A stretch of 37,835 bases of DNA from assembly GCA_963205375.1 (NCBI GenBank), contig CAUJJV010000083.1, positions 1-37,835 of the forward strand, read 5' to 3'. The notes under the pieces are model-generated. The model worked only from the letters and a program-made list of their open reading frames with translations, searched no databases and was not told where the DNA came from. Below, one piece after another: positions 20,252 through 34,776 of this stretch. This stretch comes from Pseudomonadota bacterium (GTDB lineage Bacteria; Pseudomonadota; Gammaproteobacteria; Burkholderiales; Burkholderiaceae_C). The position numbers and the translations under genes were made by a program. The number at the start of each line of letters is the position of its first letter. The stretch's first letter is position 1.

Positions 20252-21580
20252 TCAGGGGTACAGACCCCGCAACTCGCGTGCGTGCAGTATTCGTTTGCAG
20301 GCCACGATGAAAGTGGCGGTACGCAGGCTGACCTTGTGGTCCTGTGCCACCTGCCACACACCGGCAAATGCTTCCTTCATGATGCGTACCAGACGGGCAT
20401 TGATTTCGTCTTCGCTCCAGAAAAAGCTGGAGAAATCCTGCACCCACTCGAAGTAGCTGACCGTCACGCCACCTGCGTTGGCAATGACGTCGGGTAGCAC
20501 CAGAATGCCGCGTTCCTGCAGGATGTCATCGGCCTGTGGTGTGGTCGGTCCATTGGCACCCTCAATCACCAGACGGGCTTGGATGCGCCCTGCATTGGCT
20601 GCCGTGATCTGCTGTTCCAGTGCGGCAGGAATGAGGATGTCGCAGTCCACATCCCAGAATGCATCCTGGGAGATCACCTCCGCGTGTGCGAAGCCCGCCA
20701 CGGAGCCGGTCAGTGCGACGTGGGCCAACAGCGCGGGCACATCGAGTCCCGACTCACGATAGATCGTGCCGCCATGGTCCTGCACGGCCACCACGCGGGC
20801 ACCCGCCTGGGCAAACAATTTGCCGGCGATACCGCCTACATTGCCAAAGCCCTGCACAGCAACCCGGGCGTGGGTCACGTCCAGCCCAATGTGGTGGGCC
20901 GCCTCCACGCCCACGGTGTATACGCCGCGCCCTGTGGCTTCACGCCGGCCCAGTGAGCCACCCAGGTCAATCGGCTTGCCCGTGACCACGCCCGTGGCTG
21001 TGGCACCCTCATTCATCGAATAGGTGTCCATCATCCACGCCATGATTTGCTCATTGGTGTTGACATCGGGCGCCGGGATGTCCTTGGTGGGGCCGATGAT
21101 GATGCCGATCTCGCTGGTGTAGCGGCGTGTCATGCGTTCCAGTTCACCGCGCGACAGCGTCTTGGGGTCCACGCGGATGCCGCCCTTGGCACCGCCATAG
21201 GGCACGTTGACGGCAGCATTCTTGATCGACATCCAGGCTGAGAGCGCCATCACTTCCGACAGCCTCACATCCTGGTGAAACCGCACGCCCCCCTTGCCGG
21301 GTCCGCGAGAGGTGTTGTGCTGCACGCGGTAGCCTTCAAAGTGCGCCACGGTGCCGTTGTCCAGCTGGATGGGGACGTCCACAATCAGCGCCCGCTTGGG
21401 CCGCTTGAGGGTTTCCGCCCAGCGCGCCAGATGCCCCAGGTAGGGAATCACGCGGTCGACTTGCTGCAGGTAAATGCCCCAGGGACCCAGTTGGTCGGCT
21501 TGGAGGTACGACGGCAGTGGGTGTCCGTACGGGTTGTTCAAATGCGATGCAGTGCCTGTGGGGGCGGTCGGGTGCGACAT
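20252..21580 (-). CDS. gdhA: Glu/Leu/Phe/Val dehydrogenase (glutamate dehydrogenase)
   Basis: 442 residues. It interconverts glutamate and 2-oxoglutarate plus ammonia. The catalytic-lysine region reads [15 protein letters not shown], and the substrate region has [14 protein letters not shown]. The Rossmann loop [20 protein letters not shown] supports nucleotide binding. The C-terminal stretch [17 protein letters not shown] is typical of the family. The ATG at 21580 is preceded by a good Shine-Dalgarno (CAGGAG). Whether it uses NAD or NADP cannot be settled by eye; similar betaproteobacterial enzymes are often annotated NAD-dependent. It is monocistronic, with a palindrome upstream. The symbol gdhA is by family convention. 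Confidence 0.93.
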
Positions 21581-21717: not shown

Positions 21718-22122
21718 TCAGGCCGAGATGTTGACGATGCGTCCCGTCGACTGGCCCTGAATATTGATGACGGGCGAGCCGTTCGCCGTGGTCTTGAGTG
21801 CGTTGCCGCTGTCGGTGAACTTCTGGCTGGTGGCCTTGTACAGGCGCTCGATGAAGTCCTGCGTTTCGGGCGGTACTTCGGAGGTGCTGCCCTTGACCGC
21901 AGACGTGTAGGTTGCGTCCGATTGGCGGGCTTGTGCCGTCAGGGTGCGCACCTTTTCCTGGCCTTGCTGGGCTTTACGTTCTTCCTCGTTGGCCTGCGCA
22001 CGCAACTGCTGCGCGTTGGCTTCTGCTTGCTCGGCTTCACGCCCGGCCTGCTCCACGCGCGAACGATTCAACACCGACTGCAAAGACGGCGTCGCGTTGC
22101 TGGTGGCGGTGATGGCAACCAC
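21718..22122 (-). CDS. Unrecognised small coiled-coil protein (134 aa)
   Basis: I do not recognise this gene. The 134-residue product has no signal peptide or membrane helix. Residues about 18-70 are Ala/Gln/Glu/Arg-rich and look like a coiled coil (EQAGREAEQAEANAQQLRAQ). A more mixed segment follows (PPETQDFIERLYKATSQKF), then the C-terminal tail NIQGQSTGRIVNISA. That tail matches the tail of the upstream neighbour (NGQGQTIGTRLNVTA). The start is a GTG at 22122 with AGGAA upstream; no ATG gives a better start. It lies 30 bp after the 67-aa gene and shares its promoter. It is probably a real gene, judging by the Shine-Dalgarno, the operon layout and the paralogous tail. Confidence 0.72.
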   Translation of the reverse strand: MVAITATSNATPSLQSVLNRSRVEQAGREAEQAEANAQQLRAQANEEERKAQQGQEKVRTLTAQARQSDATYTSAVKGSTSEVPPETQDFIERLYKATSQKFTDSGNALKTTANGSPVINIQGQSTGRIVNISA

Positions 22123-22152
22123 TGGGTGGTTCCTGTCAGACCGGCGCGGTGT

Positions 22153-22356
22153 TCAGGCCGTGACGTTCAGGCGGGTTCCGATGGTCTGGCCCTGGCCGTT
22201 CACATTGGGACGGGGTTTGTTCTCGGCGGCTTTTTGTGTCTGTGCCTGTTCAGCTTGCACCTGCGCTTCGCGGCGCTGAGTCTGCTGCACCTGCTCGGCG
22301 CGCTTGGTGGCTTGCACCTGTTGTACTTGCTGGGGTTTGGCTTTGCTGACGTCCAT
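22153..22356 (-). CDS. Unrecognised Gln-rich small protein (67 aa), tail paralogue of its neighbour
   Basis: I do not recognise this gene. The 67-residue product starts MDVSKAKPQQVQQVQATKRA, is extremely Gln/Ala/Arg-rich, and is predicted helical from about residue 8 to 45. It ends NVNGQGQTIGTRLNVTA. The tail shares the pattern N-x-Q-G-Q-x-x-G-x-x-x-N-x-x-A with the next gene. The ATG at 22356 has GGGAGA nine bases upstream and a sigma70 promoter just before it. The ORF track shows this frame as part of a much longer open frame (to 23409) that runs antisense in frame terms through the ABC transporter; only the segment from 22356 is credible. Confidence 0.7.
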   Translation of the reverse strand: MDVSKAKPQQVQQVQATKRAEQVQQTQRREAQVQAEQAQTQKAAENKPRPNVNGQGQTIGTRLNVTA

Positions 22357-22384
22357 GGAAAATCTCCCGGGAGTGAATGCCTTG

Positions 22385-22413
22385 ATTTTAGGCACATACC
22401 CCGCGCTTTTCAA
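22385..22413 (-). promoter_or_regulatory. Sigma70 promoter for the two small-protein genes
   Basis: On the minus strand, TTGAAA and TAAAAT are separated by exactly 17 bp, one mismatch each from consensus. The predicted start near 22378 leaves a leader of about 22 nt with a GGGAGA ribosome binding site before the 67-aa gene. Confidence 0.65.
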
Positions 22414-22439: not shown

Positions 22440-24218
22440 TCAGGCGTTGAATTGCAAGGCCGCCAGTCCGGCGTACACCCCGCCACGTGCCACCAGTTCG
22501 GCGTGCGTCCCTTGCTCCACCAGCCGGCCGTGGTCCAGTACCACGATCAAATCGGCCTTTTGTACCGTGGCCAGCCGGTGGGCAATGACCAGCGTGGTGC
22601 GGTCGCGCATGGCCGACTCCAGTGCCGCCTGCACCATGCGTTCGCTCTCGGCGTCCAGCGCGCTGGTGGCTTCGTCCAGCAGCAGCAGGGGCGGGTTTTT
22701 GAGCATGGCGCGTGCAATGGCAATGCGCTGGCGCTGTCCGCCCGACAGGCGCACCCCGCGCTCGCCCAGGAAGGTGTTGTAGCCCTCGGGCAAGTCCTGG
22801 ATGAATTCGTGCGCAAAGGCGGCATGGGCGGCGGCGTGCACCTCGGCATCGGTGGCCTCGGGTTTGCCATAGCGGATGTTCTCCAGTGCCGTGCTGGAAA
22901 AAATCACGGCGTCCTGCGGCACAATGCCCACGCGCTGGCGCAGCGCGTCCAAAGCCATGGCGCGTGTACCCACACCATCGAGCACGATCTGGCCGCTCTG
23001 CGGGTCGTAGTAACGCAGCAGCAGCTGGAACACCGTGCTCTTGCCCGCACCGCTCGGTCCCACGATGGCCACGGTCTGCCCGGGATGCACATCGAGGCTG
23101 AAGTCCTGCAATGCCGCCTGCTGCGGGCGGGATGGGTAGTGAAAATTGATTGCTTCGAATTTGATAGCGCTTCCCGCAGCAGGCATGGGGGCTAGAGCCG
23201 GATTTGAGGGTGAAGTGATGGGAGACTGGGTGCCTAGCAGCTCCATCAGCCGCTCGGTGGCACCCGCTGCGCGCAGCAGGTCGCCATACACCTCGCCCAG
23301 CACTGCAAAGGCGCTGGCCAGAATGATCACGTACACCACGGTTTGCCCGAGGTGGCCCGCGCTGATGCGGCCTTCGGCAACCGCCTGCGTGCCCTGGTAC
23401 AGACCCCACAGCAGCGCGGCCGACGTGGCAATGATGATGAAGGCCACCAGCACCGAACGCATCAGGCTGCGCTTGGTGGCAGTGGCAAACGCGTTGTCGG
23501 TCGAGGTGACAAACCGCTGCGTCTCTCGTCCCTCAGCCGTGTAGCTTTGCACCACGGGAATGGCGTTGAGCACCTCGGCCGCAATCGCACTGGAGTCCGC
23601 CACCCGGTCTTGAGACGCGCGAGAGAGTTTGCGCACCCGTCGGCCAAACCACAGGCTGGGCAGCACGATCAGCACCAGCACCACCAGCACCTGCAGCATC
23701 ACCACCGGGTTGGTCCAGACCAGCACCGCCAGCGCGCCCAAGCCCATCACCGCATTGCGCAGCCCCATGCTCAGCGACGAGCCCACCACGGTTTGCACCA
23801 GCGTGGTGTCGGCCGACAGGCGCGAGAGCACTTCGCCGGTTTGCGTGGTTTCAAAGAATTCGGGGCTCTGCTTGAGCACGTGGCTGTAGACCGCATTGCG
23901 CAGGTCGGCGGTTACGCGTTCGCCCAGCCAGCTCACCATGTAGAAGCGGCAGGCCGAAAACAGGCCCAGTGCCACGGCCACGGCAAACAGCGCCGCAAAG
24001 TGTTCGCGCAGCGCCATCACCTGCGCACCCTTGTCGGCCTGCACCAGCCCACCGTCGATCAGGCTGCGCAGTGCCACGGGGAAGGCCAGCATGGCCCCGG
24101 CCGCCAGCACCAGAAACAGCAGCGCCAGGCCAATGCGGCCTCGATACGGCCGCAGAAACGGCAGCAGACCGGAGAGCGATTTGGGGTTGGTGGATTTGGG
24201 GCGGTCAGAAGAAGTCAT
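22440..24218 (-). CDS. ABC exporter, fused permease/ATPase (MsbA-like)
   Basis: 592 residues. This is a half-transporter expected to work as a homodimer in the inner membrane. The N-terminal half has six membrane helices (about residues 28-320). The ATPase half has Walker A GPSGAGKST (about residue 386), the signature LSGGQRQRIAIARA (about 490), Walker B LLLLDEATSALD (about 510) and the H-loop IAHRLATV. The linker between the halves (about residues 336-356) is encoded by a copy of a dispersed repeat. The ATG at 24218 gives MTSSDRPKSTNPK. Family members export lipids or hydrophobic compounds; the substrate is not evident. The upstream gap contains another repeat copy. Confidence 0.92.
   Translation of the reverse strand: MTSSDRPKSTNPKSLSGLLPFLRPYRGRIGLALLFLVLAAGAMLAFPVALRSLIDGGLVQADKGAQVMALREHFAALFAVAVALGLFSACRFYMVSWLGERVTADLRNAVYSHVLKQSPEFFETTQTGEVLSRLSADTTLVQTVVGSSLSMGLRNAVMGLGALAVLVWTNPVVMLQVLVVLVLIVLPSLWFGRRVRKLSRASQDRVADSSAIAAEVLNAIPVVQSYTAEGRETQRFVTSTDNAFATATKRSLMRSVLVAFIIIATSAALLWGLYQGTQAVAEGRISAGHLGQTVVYVIILASAFAVLGEVYGDLLRAAGATERLMELLGTQSPITSPSNPALAPMPAAGSAIKFEAINFHYPSRPQQAALQDFSLDVHPGQTVAIVGPSGAGKSTVFQLLLRYYDPQSGQIVLDGVGTRAMALDALRQRVGIVPQDAVIFSSTALENIRYGKPEATDAEVHAAAHAAFAHEFIQDLPEGYNTFLGERGVRLSGGQRQRIAIARAMLKNPPLLLLDEATSALDAESERMVQAALESAMRDRTTLVIAHRLATVQKADLIVVLDHGRLVEQGTHAELVARGGVYAGLAALQFNA
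23150..23210 (+). repeat. Dispersed hairpin repeat, copy B, inside the ABC exporter gene
   Basis: Blocks TGCTTCGAATTTGATAGC, CCCGCAGCAGG and GGGGCTAGAGCCGGATTT occur in the same order and spacing as in copies A and C. It lies in frame within the ABC gene and, on the minus strand, encodes the linker and the first strand of the ATPase domain (...PMPAAGSAIKFEAI). Confidence 0.55.
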
Positions 24219-25500: not shown

Positions 25501-27330
25501 TTAGCGTGCAAGCATAGTCCAAGCCTGCGTCAGGCGTCGCACCAGGTCCTGTGGGCGGTGCACCATGGCGTAGCCCTGGCGGCCAAACAGCATGGGCAGG
25601 TAGTCGTGTGCGTCGGTGTCGATGGTCACACAGAATGGCGTCAGTCCGGCGGTACGTGCCTCGTGGATGGCGTGGCGCGTGTCCTCCAGGCCATAGCGAC
25701 CCTCGTACACATCGAGGTCATTGGGTTTGCCGTCGGTCAGCAGCATCAGCAGGCGCTTGCGCTCGGGCCGAACCTGCAGTTGCGCTGTGGCATGGCGCAC
25801 CGCTGCGCCCATGCGGGTGTAGTAGCCGGGGCGGATGGCGCCCACGCGTGCACGGGACGCGTCGCTCCAGCGTTCGTCAAAATCCAAGATGCGCTGCATG
25901 CGCACATTCTGGCGTCGCACCGAGCTGAAGCCCCACATGGCAAACGGGTCGCCCACGGCGGTGAGTGCTTCGCCAAACACATAGAGTGCATCGCGGATCA
26001 CATCGATCACCCTCTCGGTGTCGCTGGCATAGGCATCGGTGGATTGCGACAGGTCCGCCAGCAGCAGGGTGGAGAGGCTGCGTTCCCCACGTACCCGGCG
26101 CGTGTAGACGGCGGGGGTGTCGCTGCGCAAGGCCTGGTCGCCCACAGCGTCGGCTTGCAGTCGGATCCAGGCGTCCAGGTCAATGTCGTCACCACTTTGC
26201 TGGCCGCGCTGCTGGCGCGGCGCATCGCGCAAAATTTCCAGGCGCTTGCGCATGGCACGCGCGGTGTTGCGCAGGGCTGGAGACGGCACAAAGGCGGTGC
26301 CCGGGCGGGCGATGCGCTCCTGCAGGCAGCAGTGTGCCGGGATCAGCACGCCCTTGCGGTAGTCGTACTCGGGAAAGTGGGTCCCAGGTCCCAGCGGCAG
26401 ATCGTCTGCGCTGCTGCTGGGCAGGTCCAGGTCGAACTTCACCCGTGCGGCCAGAGACTGGCCGTCGGGGGTGATGCTCAGTGTCTCCATGTCATTGGCG
26501 GCGCGCATGGCGCTGCCATCGTCTTCGTCGTCGGTGCTGCGGTTGACACGCACCATTTCGTTCCAGCTCATCAGCGCCTCGGCGCGGAACGGCAGGATAA
26601 ATGGGTTGCGTTCGGTGTCGTACTGGCGTGTGCTGGCGCGGCGGCGCTGGGTGTCGTTCTTGTCCGCTGCTTTGCGTGGGTCAGTTGGCGTGGTGGGTTG
26701 GGTGCTCCGCTCAGCGCCTGGCGCAAACGATTCGACGGCACCCATCCAGAGCCATACCGGAGCTACGTCCGCACAGACCAGGTCCAGATAATCTGGCGTC
26801 TGGTCGCGCAGAGCGGTCTGTATGCAGCGTTCGGCTGCAGCGTGGCGTCCCTTGAGTGCGGCTGGGTCCGGGCGCTGGGCCAGGTGGGCGTCGCGCAGCG
26901 CCTGGTAACGCGGTGCAAACCCGGGAAAGGCCTGCAGTGCATGGTCAGTCGCTTGCAGGTTGTCCGCCACCCACCCATTGCCGTGCGTGTAGTGTGCGGA
27001 CAGCAATGCCAGCCATAGATACAGGTCGTGGTTCAGCGCGCGGTCCGGAAAAACGGCCAGCGCGGGGGGCAAGGCCAGTACCTGCGGCTCCAGCACGGTC
27101 AGCGCCGCGCGTTGGGGCGTGCCCGCCAGGCGGTTCAGCCAGGGTTGGGCACCGCCCGTGCGCTGCGACGTGGCTTCAGTGAGCCGCACATGGCCTGCGC
27201 CGCCCGCCGCGCGAAACATGATGCCGATGGATTTTTTGGCTTCATCCAGGCTGACCGAAAAAGCCGCATGCTCGGGACGCGTCCAGTGGGTCAGCGCCTC
27301 GTGCCACCAGCGGCCTACCAGTTCTTCCAT
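25501..27330 (-). CDS. norD: Nitric oxide reductase activation protein NorD
   Basis: 609 residues, cytoplasmic. NorD works with the AAA+ ATPase NorQ to insert or activate the non-heme iron of nitric oxide reductase. The C-terminal ~190 residues form a von Willebrand A domain with the MIDAS motif DLSQS (about residue 425) and LLLMLTDGKPNDLDVYEGRY. The family end DYLPMLFGRQGYAMVH is also present. The N-terminal part is the long variable helical region of NorD, with an acidic/Ser insertion in the middle. The ATG at 27330 overlaps the stop of the preceding polyferredoxin gene by one base (TGATG). Confidence 0.93.
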   Translation of the reverse strand: MEELVGRWWHEALTHWTRPEHAAFSVSLDEAKKSIGIMFRAAGGAGHVRLTEATSQRTGGAQPWLNRLAGTPQRAALTVLEPQVLALPPALAVFPDRALNHDLYLWLALLSAHYTHGNGWVADNLQATDHALQAFPGFAPRYQALRDAHLAQRPDPAALKGRHAAAERCIQTALRDQTPDYLDLVCADVAPVWLWMGAVESFAPGAERSTQPTTPTDPRKAADKNDTQRRRASTRQYDTERNPFILPFRAEALMSWNEMVRVNRSTDDEDDGSAMRAANDMETLSITPDGQSLAARVKFDLDLPSSSADDLPLGPGTHFPEYDYRKGVLIPAHCCLQERIARPGTAFVPSPALRNTARAMRKRLEILRDAPRQQRGQQSGDDIDLDAWIRLQADAVGDQALRSDTPAVYTRRVRGERSLSTLLLADLSQSTDAYASDTERVIDVIRDALYVFGEALTAVGDPFAMWGFSSVRRQNVRMQRILDFDERWSDASRARVGAIRPGYYTRMGAAVRHATAQLQVRPERKRLLMLLTDGKPNDLDVYEGRYGLEDTRHAIHEARTAGLTPFCVTIDTDAHDYLPMLFGRQGYAMVHRPQDLVRRLTQAWTMLAR

Positions 27331-28346
27331 CAGCGCTTGTCCTGGAGTTCTTCGCGGCGCTGGCGCAGGGTTTCACGCAAAGCCGCTTCGCCGATTTCCC
27401 ATTGCAGGGTTGGGCTACGGTGCTGCGCGGACTGGGTGGCATCGCACGCTGTCAGGCACTGGCCGCATTGCACGCAGGAGAACATGAGCCGCTTGATATT
27501 GCGCGGGTGCAGGCGCATGGGGCAAACCGCATCGCAGGCGTTTCCCGGAAGCGCCGTCAGGGCGGCTGCCCCGGGCAGCGCCTTGCCTTCGGCGGTTTCA
27601 TGGCGGCAGGTCTTGCAGTCGCGTGCGCGTTCGCGGGTGAAAGCCACCACCATGCCCCGTGGGTTGGCCATCCAGGCCAGACTCTGGAACAGCCCTACGG
27701 CGCAACCAAAGCGGCAAAACAGATGCCGTGCGAAGGCGAACTCCAGCGTGAACAGCAACGTGGCCACCAGCAGAAAGCGTGTGGGCCCGGGCGTCAGGGT
27801 GCCTTGCAACAGCCGGCCCCAGATTTCTGCGGGAGGCAACAGGTAGGTCAGTAGCGTGATGGCCCACACAAAGCCCATCGTCAGGCAGCTCAAGGCAAAC
27901 AGTGGCCACCACCGGGGAGACGGGTCGACGCCGGCGCGGGGGGTGGTGGCTTTGTCCCACAGGCTGAGCTTGCCGCAGGCGCGGTGCAGCAGCGTGTTGA
28001 GGGTTTCAACGGCAGAAAAATGGGGGCACAACCAGCCGCAGTAGATGCGCCCGTAGCGGTAGGCAATGCCCAGAAATACGACGATGAAGAGCACGGCGGG
28101 CACAAAAGCGCGCAGGAGCAGGGTTATGCCCGCCTGGGTTGCGCTGACTTCGCCGCGTGCCAGCGCATCAATACCCAACGACCAGCGCATGCCCAGAAAC
28201 CACAGTTGGGCCTCATGCAGGTCAAAACGCAGCAGGTTCAGTGCGGGAGCCAGCAAAAACAGAAGAAAAAAGCCGCCCTGTGTTCGGCGGCGCCATGCCT
28301 GCAGACGCGCGGTGCTGGAGGCCTGTGCGCCTACATCAGCTTTCAT
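27330..28346 (-). CDS. Membrane-bound 4Fe-4S polyferredoxin (NosR/NapH/CcoG-like) in the nor operon
   Basis: 338 residues from the ATG at 28346 (MKADVGAQ), overlapping the norQ end by 11 bp. About five membrane helices are visible, for example GGFFLLFLLAPALNLL and LLLRAFVPAVLFIVVFLGIA. Cysteine motifs in order are YCGWLCP, CRFGC, CKTC...CDAVCP with about two dozen residues inserted between the second and third cysteine, and CVQCGQCLTACD. This is the architecture of the NosR C-terminal, NapH and CcoG/RdxA polyferredoxins, which move electrons across or along the membrane or act on metal sites. Its position between norQ and norD suggests a role in NorCB maturation or electron supply, which is inference. 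The track's start at 28397 lies deep in norQ. Confidence 0.82.
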   Translation of the reverse strand: MKADVGAQASSTARLQAWRRRTQGGFFLLFLLAPALNLLRFDLHEAQLWFLGMRWSLGIDALARGEVSATQAGITLLLRAFVPAVLFIVVFLGIAYRYGRIYCGWLCPHFSAVETLNTLLHRACGKLSLWDKATTPRAGVDPSPRWWPLFALSCLTMGFVWAITLLTYLLPPAEIWGRLLQGTLTPGPTRFLLVATLLFTLEFAFARHLFCRFGCAVGLFQSLAWMANPRGMVVAFTRERARDCKTCRHETAEGKALPGAAALTALPGNACDAVCPMRLHPRNIKRLMFSCVQCGQCLTACDATQSAQHRSPTLQWEIGEAALRETLRQRREELQDKR

Positions 28347-29139
28347 CGCCGATGACAGCACGTACCACCTCGCGCAGCGCGACGGCGGTATCCGCATCGT
28401 CCGTCAGCGCATCAATGATGGCGGCACGGCATGCCAGTCCCAGTGGCAGACCCGATGCGGCCAGGCGCCCAGCGGCTACCAGCAGCCGGGTGCTGGCTGT
28501 TTCTTCCAGGTCATGATCGGTCAGACAGCGTAACGCGGTTGCCAGGCGCACCAGTTGCCCAGCTATGATTTCGGAGACACCTGTCTCGTTCTGCACGATG
28601 GTGCGCTCAATGTCGGGGGCAGGGTAGTCCAGGCTCAACGCCACAAAGCGCTGCCGTGTGCTGGGCTTGAGGCCCTTGAGAAGATTCTGGTAACCCGGGT
28701 TGTACGAGATCACCAGCATGAATTCTGGTGGCGCTGCCAACTCTTCCCCCGTGCGTTCGATCGGCAAAATGCGCCGGTCGTCCGCCAGTGGATGCAGCAC
28801 CACGGTGGTGTCCTTGCGAGCTTCGACCACCTCATCGAGGTAGCAGATGGCGCCGTTGCGCACTGCGCGGGCCAACGGACCATCAGACCACACTGTATTG
28901 CCCTGGCCAATCAGAAAGCGCCCCACGAGATCGGAGGCGCTGAGGTCGTCGTGGCAGGACACGGTGACCAGTGGACGGCCCAGACGGGCCGCCATGTGTT
29001 CCACAAAACGGGTCTTGCCACAGCCGGTGGGTCCCTTGATCAGCAGCGGCAACTGTTGTTGCCATGCATGTTCAAACAACTGGCATTCAGCTCCCTGCGC
29101 CGCGTAGTAAGGCGGCGTGTGCTGTGGAAGAACGTTCAT
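28336..29139 (-). CDS. norQ: Nitric oxide reductase activation protein NorQ (MoxR-type AAA+ ATPase)
   Basis: 267 residues, cytoplasmic. It belongs to the CbbQ/NirQ/NorQ branch and is required with NorD for active cNOR. Visible are Walker A GPTGCGKTRFVEHMA, Walker B AICYLDEVVEARKDTT and a sensor-1-like stretch FMLVISYNPGYQNLLKGLK. The C-terminal half contains STRLLVAAGRLAASGLPL, conserved in the family. I chose the ATG at 29139 (MNVLPQHTPPYY), 11 bp after norB; the upstream frame to 29424 lies inside norB. It overlaps the following polyferredoxin gene. Confidence 0.95.
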   Translation of the reverse strand: MNVLPQHTPPYYAAQGAECQLFEHAWQQQLPLLIKGPTGCGKTRFVEHMAARLGRPLVTVSCHDDLSASDLVGRFLIGQGNTVWSDGPLARAVRNGAICYLDEVVEARKDTTVVLHPLADDRRILPIERTGEELAAPPEFMLVISYNPGYQNLLKGLKPSTRQRFVALSLDYPAPDIERTIVQNETGVSEIIAGQLVRLATALRCLTDHDLEETASTRLLVAAGRLAASGLPLGLACRAAIIDALTDDADTAVALREVVRAVIGDES

Positions 29140-29150
29140 AGCGGTCAATT

Positions 29151-31051
<1,901 letters not shown>

Positions 31052-31086
31052 TGCGTTACTACTCCAGTGATGAATAATCTGCCACG

Positions 31087-31092
31087 ATTTTA
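31087..31092 (-). promoter_or_regulatory. -10 element of norC promoter
   Basis: Minus-strand TAAAAT, one mismatch from TATAAT. It implies transcription start near 31080, which puts the centre of the upstream FNR/Dnr box at exactly -41.5. The leader to norC would be about 29 nt. No good -35 is needed for a class II activator site. Confidence 0.6.
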
Positions 31093-31114
31093 GAGCGTGG
31101 GGCGTCGTTTATCC

Positions 31115-31128
31115 TTGAACGACTTCAA
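31115..31128. promoter_or_regulatory. FNR/Dnr-type box upstream of norC
   Basis: TTGAACGACTTCAA is a perfect inverted repeat TTGAA-N4-TTCAA, close to the FNR-family consensus TTGAT-N4-ATCAA. It lies 64 bp before norC in the intergenic region shared with dnr, and its spacing to the norC -10 is that of a class II activated promoter. The adjacent Dnr-type protein is the natural candidate to bind it; a separate FNR could too. Confidence 0.75.
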
Positions 31129-31208
31129 GAATGCGTAAGAAACAGAATTTGCCTGTGTTTCCCGCCTCTTGCCAGCTCTATGCACTATGACAATATGGAC
31201 CGTTATTG

Positions 31209-31907
31209 ATGGAACTTGAACAATTCAACATCCCCCGCTTCCTGGCAGTGTTGCCACTTTTTAGCGATTTGTCGCCTGCAGATCTGGCCCGCATGGCCGG
31301 TGGCTGTGACCTGAAACGCCTGAACCGAGGTGACACCATATTTCGCTACGGCGAGCCATGTGAAGAGTTCCATGTGGTGGTGACTGGTCAGATCAAATTG
31401 TTTGCGCTGTCCCAGGCTGGACAGGAAAAAGTCATTGAACTGGTCGGACCGGGGCACAGCTTTGCCGAGGCGCTGATGTTCACCAGCAAACCTTACATCC
31501 TCAATGCCCAGGCCTTGACCAGCACACTGCTGCTGACCGTGGGGAAGCAGGCCATCGTGGCTGAGATTGAACGGGACCCCCGCTTCTGCATGCGCATGCT
31601 GGCGGGCATTTCCCGAAGGTTGCATGGGTTGATCCAGGATATCGAATCCGGCGCTCTGCAAAATGGCGTGCAAAGGGTGATTGGCTATTTGCTGCGTGAA
31701 TACCAGATCGAAGCCGAATCACCAGAGCAAGCTTTTACGGTGGCGTTACCCGTGAGCAAGGCCACGATTGCCTCACGGCTTTCCCTGACGCCGGAGTATT
31801 TTTCCAAAGTGCTGCGCGAGCTGGAAGAGCAGGGACTGATAGCAATGGACAAGCGCGATATCCGCATCATCGATCCACAGCGACTGGCGACCTACGGCGT
31901 GCAGTAG
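31209..31907 (+). CDS. dnr: CRP/FNR-family regulator, Dnr type
   Basis: 232 residues. The N-terminal cyclic-nucleotide-like sensor domain includes LPLFSDLSPADLARMAGG, RGDTIFRYGEPCEEFHVVV and GHSFAEALMF. A long dimerisation helix follows (RRLHGLIQDIESGALQNG). The C-terminal HTH contains VSKATIASRLSLTPEYFSKV; its recognition helix has E-x-x-S-K where FNR has E-x-x-S-R. The FNR-type N-terminal cysteine cluster is missing, so it is of the Dnr/Nnr type, usually NO-responsive through heme. The ATG at 31209 (MELEQF) is preferred to the TTG at 31206. The gene is divergent from norC and its 3' end overlaps the convergent d1-like gene. The symbol rests on family resemblance and context. Confidence 0.88.
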   Translation: MELEQFNIPRFLAVLPLFSDLSPADLARMAGGCDLKRLNRGDTIFRYGEPCEEFHVVVTGQIKLFALSQAGQEKVIELVGPGHSFAEALMFTSKPYILNAQALTSTLLLTVGKQAIVAEIERDPRFCMRMLAGISRRLHGLIQDIESGALQNGVQRVIGYLLREYQIEAESPEQAFTVALPVSKATIASRLSLTPEYFSKVLRELEEQGLIAMDKRDIRIIDPQRLATYGVQ

Positions 31908-32587
31908 CGCCGCAGGGCTTGATGGGCGGAGATGTTCTGGCGCAGCCCCGGCATTGCCCTCCAGGTGCGTCCATCGACTGCGACCGAAATTGCCGCATCG
32001 GCAGGCTGGTAGGTAGCCAGTGGGACGGCGGCCAATTCCCTGCGAACATCCAGATTGATCACGTGGGCTTGGGCAGGCGCGTTGTGGGCCGCTGCAGTAA
32101 TGCTAACGGCGGTGCGGTAATCGTCCGTGAAGTACAGATCCGCAAGCTGCGTCTGCAGCAAAGTCCGGCGTACGCCCAGAAAACCGGCATGTGCCAGTCC
32201 TTCCCCCATGCGGTAGTCATGGACCAGACCGTCAAAGATGGGTTCGGCCTGCGGGTCATAGGAAATTTCCCAGATCTCGGGTATGTCGCGTAGCACCACA
32301 ATAAAGCTGCGCCGAGCGGGCGCGTCGTAGATCGCGTGGATCCGTGAAGGAGATTTTCCATCCCGGGTGGCTACCGTGTACTGGCGAATGGCCTGGGGTT
32401 TTGCATCAAACAGGGTCATTGCCGGTTTTTCTGCATCGGACCAGAGAATCCACTGGCCATCTGCGGATGAAGCCGTGTGGCGGGCGTCCTGATCGGTGCA
32501 CCAGGGTGGCACAAACACCTCGGCCTGCACGAGGCAGGCCGAGAGCAGTATGGCAATGCCTACCCCCAGAAAGCCGGTGGTACGCAT
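31892..32587 (-). CDS. Short NirF/cytochrome d1-like beta-propeller protein, exported
   Basis: 231 residues. The N-terminus is a signal sequence with a possible lipobox (LLSAC, Cys18); a signal peptidase I site after VQA is an alternative. The middle resembles the d1-propeller of NirF and NirS: RIHAIYDAPARRSFIVVLRD and IPEIWEISYDPQAEPIFDG correspond to the 'GLVDAPGRRF...GEIWLLDFSDP' region of NirF as I recall it. The protein is much shorter than a full eight-bladed d1 propeller (NirF is about 390-400 residues) and looks like part of one. It lies 12 bp after nirM, so it is probably the third gene of the nirS operon, and its end overlaps dnr convergently by 16 bp. NirF acts in heme d1 biosynthesis; whether this protein can is open. 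There is no heme c motif. Confidence 0.6.
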   Translation of the reverse strand: MRTTGFLGVGIAILLSACLVQAEVFVPPWCTDQDARHTASSADGQWILWSDAEKPAMTLFDAKPQAIRQYTVATRDGKSPSRIHAIYDAPARRSFIVVLRDIPEIWEISYDPQAEPIFDGLVHDYRMGEGLAHAGFLGVRRTLLQTQLADLYFTDDYRTAVSITAAAHNAPAQAHVINLDVRRELAAVPLATYQPADAAISVAVDGRTWRAMPGLRQNISAHQALRRYCTP

Positions 32588-32599
32588 GGTGAAGCCAGG

Positions 32600-32905
32600 T
32601 CAGGACTTGAGGATCAATTCCACGGCCGCTTTCAGATCAGCGTCGTTGATCTTGTCAGGGCCGTTCGGTGCCATGGGAATCGGGCCAAAAGTGCCGGAGC
32701 CGCCCTTGCGAACTTTTTCCATCAGTTTGGCGACCGCATCCTGGCCTTTGTATTTGGCAGCAATGTCCTTGAAAGACGGGCCAACCAGTTTTTTGTCCTT
32801 GGCGTGGCAGGCCATGCAGCCAGCCTTGTTCATGGCATCGTCCACCGGGGCTGCCTGCGCGCCAAAGGCCAGCAGTGCGGCTGCTGCAATAAGTACAGTT
32901 TTCAT
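32600..32905 (-). CDS. nirM: Cytochrome c551 (NirM-like electron donor to nitrite reductase)
   Basis: 101 residues, periplasmic. A cleavable signal peptide (MKTVLIAAAALLAFGAQA) precedes a class I c-type cytochrome with CMACH at residues 30-34. The family stretch KKLVGPSFKDIAAKY follows, and the methionine ligand lies in GPIPMAPNG (about Met78). This is the Pseudomonas-type c551 pattern. The ATG at 32905 has GGAGAAG upstream; the track's longer start (32935) would run into the intercistronic hairpin. It lies 62 bp after nirS and is the likely electron donor to NirS and possibly NorC. Confidence 0.88.
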   Translation of the reverse strand: MKTVLIAAAALLAFGAQAAPVDDAMNKAGCMACHAKDKKLVGPSFKDIAAKYKGQDAVAKLMEKVRKGGSGTFGPIPMAPNGPDKINDADLKAAVELILKS

Positions 32906-32925
32906 TCTCGTCTTCTCCATGTTGA

Positions 32926-32946
32926 GCGGGGCCACTGGGGCCCCGC
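32926..32946. other. GC-rich hairpin between nirS and nirM
   Basis: Perfect 8-bp arms GCGGGGCC and GGCCCCGC flank a 5-nt loop, between the nirS stop and the nirM start. No T-tract follows on the minus strand, so it is not a standard terminator. It could protect the 3' end of nirS mRNA or partly attenuate transcription, giving unequal NirS and NirM amounts. Confidence 0.55.
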
Positions 32947-32967
32947 AGTTAGTATCAGCGCGTAATT

Positions 32968-34776
<1,809 letters not shown>

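Follow-up and report, generated by a model that had tools for sequence, protein, structure and literature searches.

A hitherto undescribed betaproteobacterial family of small proteins sharing a conserved C-terminal tail

Introduction

Four described groups of proteins offer the closest comparisons for the two small proteins encoded side by side in the window, the 37,835-nucleotide stretch of a Burkholderiaceae_C genome analyzed here. YjfB_motility proteins (PF14070) are, like the tail proteins of this report, small (~60–70 aa) and soluble, and B. subtilis yjfB is SigD-linked. Their MDVSSIAS-like N-termini and LGQNINTTA-like C-termini loosely resemble the ends of the tail proteins, and sigma28-type sites (12–15 of 16 positions) precede three of seven YjfB genes from relatives (L199, L200, and L202), a feature held in common with single-copy tail genes. 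The conserved central YjfB helix, LKKALDIQ, is nevertheless absent from the tail proteins; PF14070 (27-bit cut-off) matched neither the window proteins nor nine relatives, whereas a true YjfB scored 61.6 bits in the same run, and hhalign paired tail and YjfB profiles (TGtlINvtA with LGqnvntaA) over only 9 columns at 9.9% probability. FlaG (PF03646), a small flagellar protein, has an N-terminus that is variable and rich in Ser, and its gene adjoins one sigma28-driven tail gene, but the tail proteins have no match to its Pfam profile, and the NCBIfam hit of a single relative is at chance level (E 0.3). The Lpp/OprI alanine-zipper lipoproteins (PF11839, NF040598) possess an Ala-rich coiled coil like the body of the large protein, with sub-threshold scores; the tail proteins, in contrast, have no signal peptide, lipobox, or Cys and end in a hairpin tail. 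Lastly, two Rhodoferax sensors of the PDC/dCache type (a domain type assigned by inspection) carry SPVVNAQGQAIGVIVINIDL, nearly the tail consensus, at a hairpin that is internal to a membrane sensor of ~570 aa rather than C-terminal, and this likeness is probably a convergent hairpin sequence.

Wider searches agree with the initial annotation, which had recognized no family. No Pfam, NCBIfam, or PHROGs profile exceeded its cut-off for the window proteins, nor did any Pfam or NCBIfam profile for nine diverse relatives; PHROGs returned only weak coiled-coil matches, and the sole PADLOC matches, to MukB-like JetC, are short stretches of coiled coil (11–15.5 bits) that do not run along the length of the family. 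Foldseek searches gave no meaningful match, PDB sequence searches gave none for the small family and only tropomyosin-level coiled-coil noise for the large one, and no description of the tail family was found in the open-access literature. The tail proteins are a real, selected, and hitherto undescribed betaproteobacterial family, new in sequence and of a generally familiar kind, that of tail-tagged coiled-coil proteins.

The Gene Pair and Its Surroundings

The two adjacent reading frames of 67 and 134 aa proposed initially lie at the expected coordinates (Table 1), separated by 30 nt, and both are translated genes under purifying selection: pairwise dN/dS is 0.05–0.21 for both proteins among Rhodoferax- and Azonexus-type pairs, and 0.07 (small) and 0.10 (large) against the pair at locus L013. 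The GTG start of the large gene is credible because its homologues have ATG aligned with the same codon. The description of both products as Gln/Ala-rich suits the small protein (24% Gln, 13% Ala, pI 10.5) and is less apt for the large one (11% Gln, 14% Ala); neither contains Cys or a hydrophobic N-terminal stretch.

The strong promoter noted earlier holds as well. It sits in the 83-nt gap between the pair and the ABC transporter gene that precedes it, and a sigma70-type promoter of the same place and spacing, ~55 nt upstream of the start, precedes nearly all of the ~37 Rhodoferax-type small genes. Because this conserved promoter falls in the gap, the pair appears to be its own transcription unit, with co-transcription suggested by the gene spacing, and read-through from the ABC transporter gene is a needless assumption. 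At five Dechloromonas/Azonexus loci (L053, L058, L070, L097, and L128), the small gene has upstream of it a conserved block resembling TGGAATATTT-N6-ATGGTGTARAGT, possibly an extended -10 promoter or the site of another sigma factor.

Table 1. Positions of features, numbered along the window unless another locus is named
Feature	Position	Strand	Remarks
Small protein gene	22153..22356	(-)	67 aa, ATG start; Gln-rich body between a short N-terminal segment and the conserved tail
Large protein gene	21718..22122	(-)	134 aa, GTG start; predicted helices at 12-77 (long) and 85-104, then the conserved tail
Small-protein tail, NGQGQTIGTRLNVTA-stop	22153..22200	(-)	Exact tail match; partly modelled as strands
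Large-protein tail, NIQGQSTGRIVNISA-stop	21718..21765	(-)	Exact tail match; modelled beta-hairpin, strands 117-119 and 125-128
Sigma70-type promoter of the pair, TTGAAA-N17-TAAAAT	22385..22413	(-)	10/12 consensus matches
Probable ribosome-binding site, small gene	22363..22368	(-)	GGGAGA, read from sequence
Probable ribosome-binding site, large gene	22130..22134	(-)	AGGAA, read from sequence
Upstream neighbour, ABC transporter	22440..24218	(-)	MsbA-like by inspection; synteny limited to Rhodoferax
Downstream neighbour, glutamate dehydrogenase	20252..21580	(-)	By inspection; DUF1178-like/NUDIX pair instead in some congeners
Denitrification-type cluster	25501-34731		By inspection; NorB-like, MoxR-like AAA, VWA protein, Crp/Fnr-type regulator, cytochrome cd1-like reductase
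nuo genes	about 4.8-18.8 kb
Membrane sensors with SPVVNAQGQAIGVIVINIDL	L236 1447-3228; L237 1917-3659
Sigma28-promoted tail gene, then flaG, Rhodoferax sp. BLA1	L239 2694-3016; L261 6694-7470		Away from the pair locus

The neighbours do not explain the pair, since it carries a conserved sigma70 promoter of its own and its contexts in different genera are unrelated: the ABC transporter and glutamate dehydrogenase genes adjoin it in Rhodoferax, in Dechloromonas it lies by DHFR and GGDEF-like genes (assigned by inspection), and in further genera by others. Gene neighbourhood was accordingly rejected as a functional clue. Chemoreceptor genes lie near 5 of the 119 loci among the matches listed, with no enrichment seen. 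The window also holds a denitrification-type cluster and nuo genes (Table 1).

A Conserved Tail on Divergent Bodies

The claim that a common tail, NxQGQxxGxxxNxxA, ends two otherwise divergent helical proteins is borne out. The last 15 residues of the two window proteins share 7 identities, and their 18-residue tails align with a score of 42 against a shuffled mean of 16.9 (maximum 31 of 500 shuffles); the bodies, at 43 versus 44.2 for shuffles, align no better than chance. Profiles built from independent relatives of the small and large families likewise match each other only in their last 21 columns, with 97.7% probability. Across 190 collected tail-like reading frames the consensus is P-V-V-N-T/A-Q-G-Q-x-T-G-R/T-h-h-N-V-T-A (h, hydrophobic). 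The first N and both G are kept in >95% of these frames, and 177 of them end in Ala; the tail is always C-terminal, at a fixed distance from the stop. Small proteins additionally begin with M-x-I/V-x-S-V-x-S.

In AlphaFold models, the large protein forms two helices (residues 12-77, which are heptad-like, and 85-104) followed by a two-stranded tail, and the small protein a helix (11-45) and tail strands, its body being mostly of low confidence or disordered. As confidence in the tail hairpin is moderate (pLDDT ~78) and overall pTM is low (0.31 and 0.28), the models serve as local structure predictions only; at that level, the tail is predicted to be a beta-hairpin and the bodies helical.

Partner tails within a genome resemble each other no more closely than tails from different genomes do (similarity 0.583 versus 0.576, p = 0.23). 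Co-adaptation of partner tails is thus rejected, which argues against recognition of a specific partner tail by tail, and the equal likeness across genomes points to a single constraint acting on all members, be it a conserved receptor or a structural one. A terminal docking element would be expected to keep a constant distance from the stop and an invariant pattern of polar and Gly residues while the body diverges freely, as is seen here; the docking role suggested initially is plausible. On the strength of the tail pattern and the lack of within-genome co-adaptation, we consider it an even call that these are docking adaptors encoded by a two-gene operon, with a tail hairpin that fits a conserved receptor. 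Each member is a small soluble protein with a short segment at its N-terminus, a fast-evolving body that is coiled-coil or rich in Gln, Ala, and Pro, and, at its C-terminus, a nearly invariant tail predicted to be a hairpin; the hairpin would most likely be the docking module for the putative receptor, and the body a spacer and oligomerization rod, so that the small and large proteins would serve one site as adaptors of two lengths.

Distribution of the Family

In the window's genome, the exact tail followed by a stop occurs twice and the reversed-pattern control not once. The same C-terminal search across 401 genomes of the family, as the initial annotation had suggested, finds the tail in 18 (control, 0 everywhere), and the small-protein profile in 25 genomes and 11 of 141 genera; in a phylum-wide draw, the tail was present in 1 of 399 genomes, namely the window's own. 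Homologues thus exist, and their tail is conserved. The pair is conserved too, given that the large protein is found in 19 of 37 genomes of the genus (E < 1e-11), nearly always beside the small gene. A scan of database contigs recovered at least 119 stretches with the tail; among the matches listed, these derive mostly from Rhodoferax, Hylemonella, Dechloromonas, Azonexus, Accumulibacter, Rhodocyclus, Sideroxydans, Sulfuricella, Massilia, and Duganella, and mostly from the families Comamonadaceae, Rhodocyclaceae, Gallionellaceae, and Oxalobacteraceae. (An exact-seed scan of database contigs with single proteins gave nothing, its seeds being too short and exact for the homologues that exist.) A tail profile run over 32 genomes mostly found one to three tail proteins in each, typically with one adjacent pair. 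An adjacent pair occupies 59 of 103 non-redundant loci with room for one among the matches listed, with the small gene first in 47 and a median gap of ~29 nt, which supports the proposed two-gene arrangement; the count is an underestimate because diverged tails (e.g., at L013, L017, and L018) escape the pattern.

The tail is not confined to pairs and also ends single proteins in Sideroxydans, Oxalobacteraceae, and others, some of them with sigma28 promoters. A different coiled-coil body (~108–136 aa) bears the same tail at L072, L073, L083, and L138 (Oxalobacteraceae and a similar locus), with no paired gene seen nearby. In a third subtype, comprising single proteins at L253, L247, L258, L162, L080, and L119, an acidic DGDxDD-like segment precedes the tail, and sigma28-type promoters stand before L253, L258, and L162. 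A pattern match in a Desulfobacteraceae genome (G487) is likely due to chance, having no profile match, as are several other distant loci at which no tail reading frame was present. Viral contigs searched with query A1 and the tail pattern yielded no member, and none was found on plasmids.

Sigma28 Promoters and Flagella

Sites of the sigma28 (flagellar class III) type, TAAAGTTT-N11-GCCGATAA, matching 13–15 of 16 positions, lie directly upstream of nine non-redundant single-copy tail proteins, namely those of Sideroxydans (L090, L112, L125, and L145), those of L162, L188, L192, and L253, and one that Rhodoferax sp. BLA1 encodes as its second tail protein (L239). In 2.2 Mb of sequence read on both strands, 17 such sites were found, 11 of them before tail genes (nine once twice-fetched loci are removed), against a background of ~2.7/Mb. 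A FlaG gene (PF03646, 48 bits) is the next gene after the tail gene at L261. In Rhodoferax sp. BLA1, the sigma28-promoted tail gene and flaG lie away from the pair locus (Table 1), and a small tail gene of the sigma70 type (L109) is present as well.

These promoters are one argument for regarding the tail proteins as late flagellar accessory factors or export substrates, wherein M-x-I-x-S-V-x-S would be an export or targeting signal, the hairpin would dock on a filament, cap, or export component, and control of the pair branch would have moved from sigma28 to sigma70. The flaG gene downstream of one tail gene and the sigma28-type promoters on the YjfB-family genes speak for it, as does the occurrence of flagellin in 24 of 25 tail-positive versus 294 of 376 tail-negative family genomes (p = 0.02), or in 23 of 23 versus 260 of 328 when genomes of good quality are taken (p = 0.006), both with shared ancestry ignored. 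Also in its favour, the window's genome (75% complete) encodes FlhA, with no flagellin detected. Against it, the pair has a sigma70 promoter instead (in the window, the best sigma28-like score is at the level of shuffles, and other pairs are likewise without such sites), pair loci lie outside flagellar clusters, the pair does not track flagellin within the genus (17 of 19 versus 15 of 18, p = 0.47), and two draft genomes, G009 and G484, possess the pair and neither flagellin nor FlhA. Given this weakly positive family-wide association, its absence within the genus, and the carriers free of flagellin and FlhA, flagella may be a common setting of the tail family, and flagella as a strict requirement are not supported. 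On balance, the accessory-factor or export-substrate account is rather unlikely.

Other Readings of the Pair

Less probable still is a polymer, a filament or scaffold in the cytoplasm that the small and large proteins would build together through their coiled coils and hairpin tails. The predicted heptad-like long helix of the large protein, weak Ala-zipper and coiled-coil profile matches, a hairpin on both partners, and a promoter of their own would suit such a polymer; on the other hand, many members occur without a partner, co-variation of tails within genomes is absent, and most of the small body is modelled at low confidence or as disordered. It is very unlikely that the tail acts as a C-terminal signal, left uncleaved, that is read by a Sec-independent exporter or, as a degron, by a protease: its terminal position, fixed stop distance, frequent final Ala, and the lack of Cys would be compatible with this, but degrons are short and type I secretion signals loosely conserved, both unlike a rigid N/G hairpin, and the loci have no exporter or protease gene in common among their neighbours. 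A toxin-antitoxin system is argued against by the gene layout, with one syntenic pair per genome in the genus and single members elsewhere.

Implications

The docking-adaptor interpretation may be extended to a dedicated tail-recognition system of the Betaproteobacteria, in which a putative receptor, possibly flagellar or polar, binds the N-x-Q-G-Q-x-x-G hairpin of both the sigma28-driven single proteins and the constitutive pairs as adaptors of different lengths; we hold this extension tentatively, as a possibility with a little more in its favour than the flagellar account above. That the receptor would be part of the motility apparatus is put forward with less assurance than docking itself or a shared receptor.

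In summary, the tail proteins define a family absent from the libraries searched, with a tail sharp enough to serve as bait, and the sigma28 promoters of its single members turn a puzzling gene pair into a testable question about motility. The tail family may also inform on the uncharacterized YjfB proteins.
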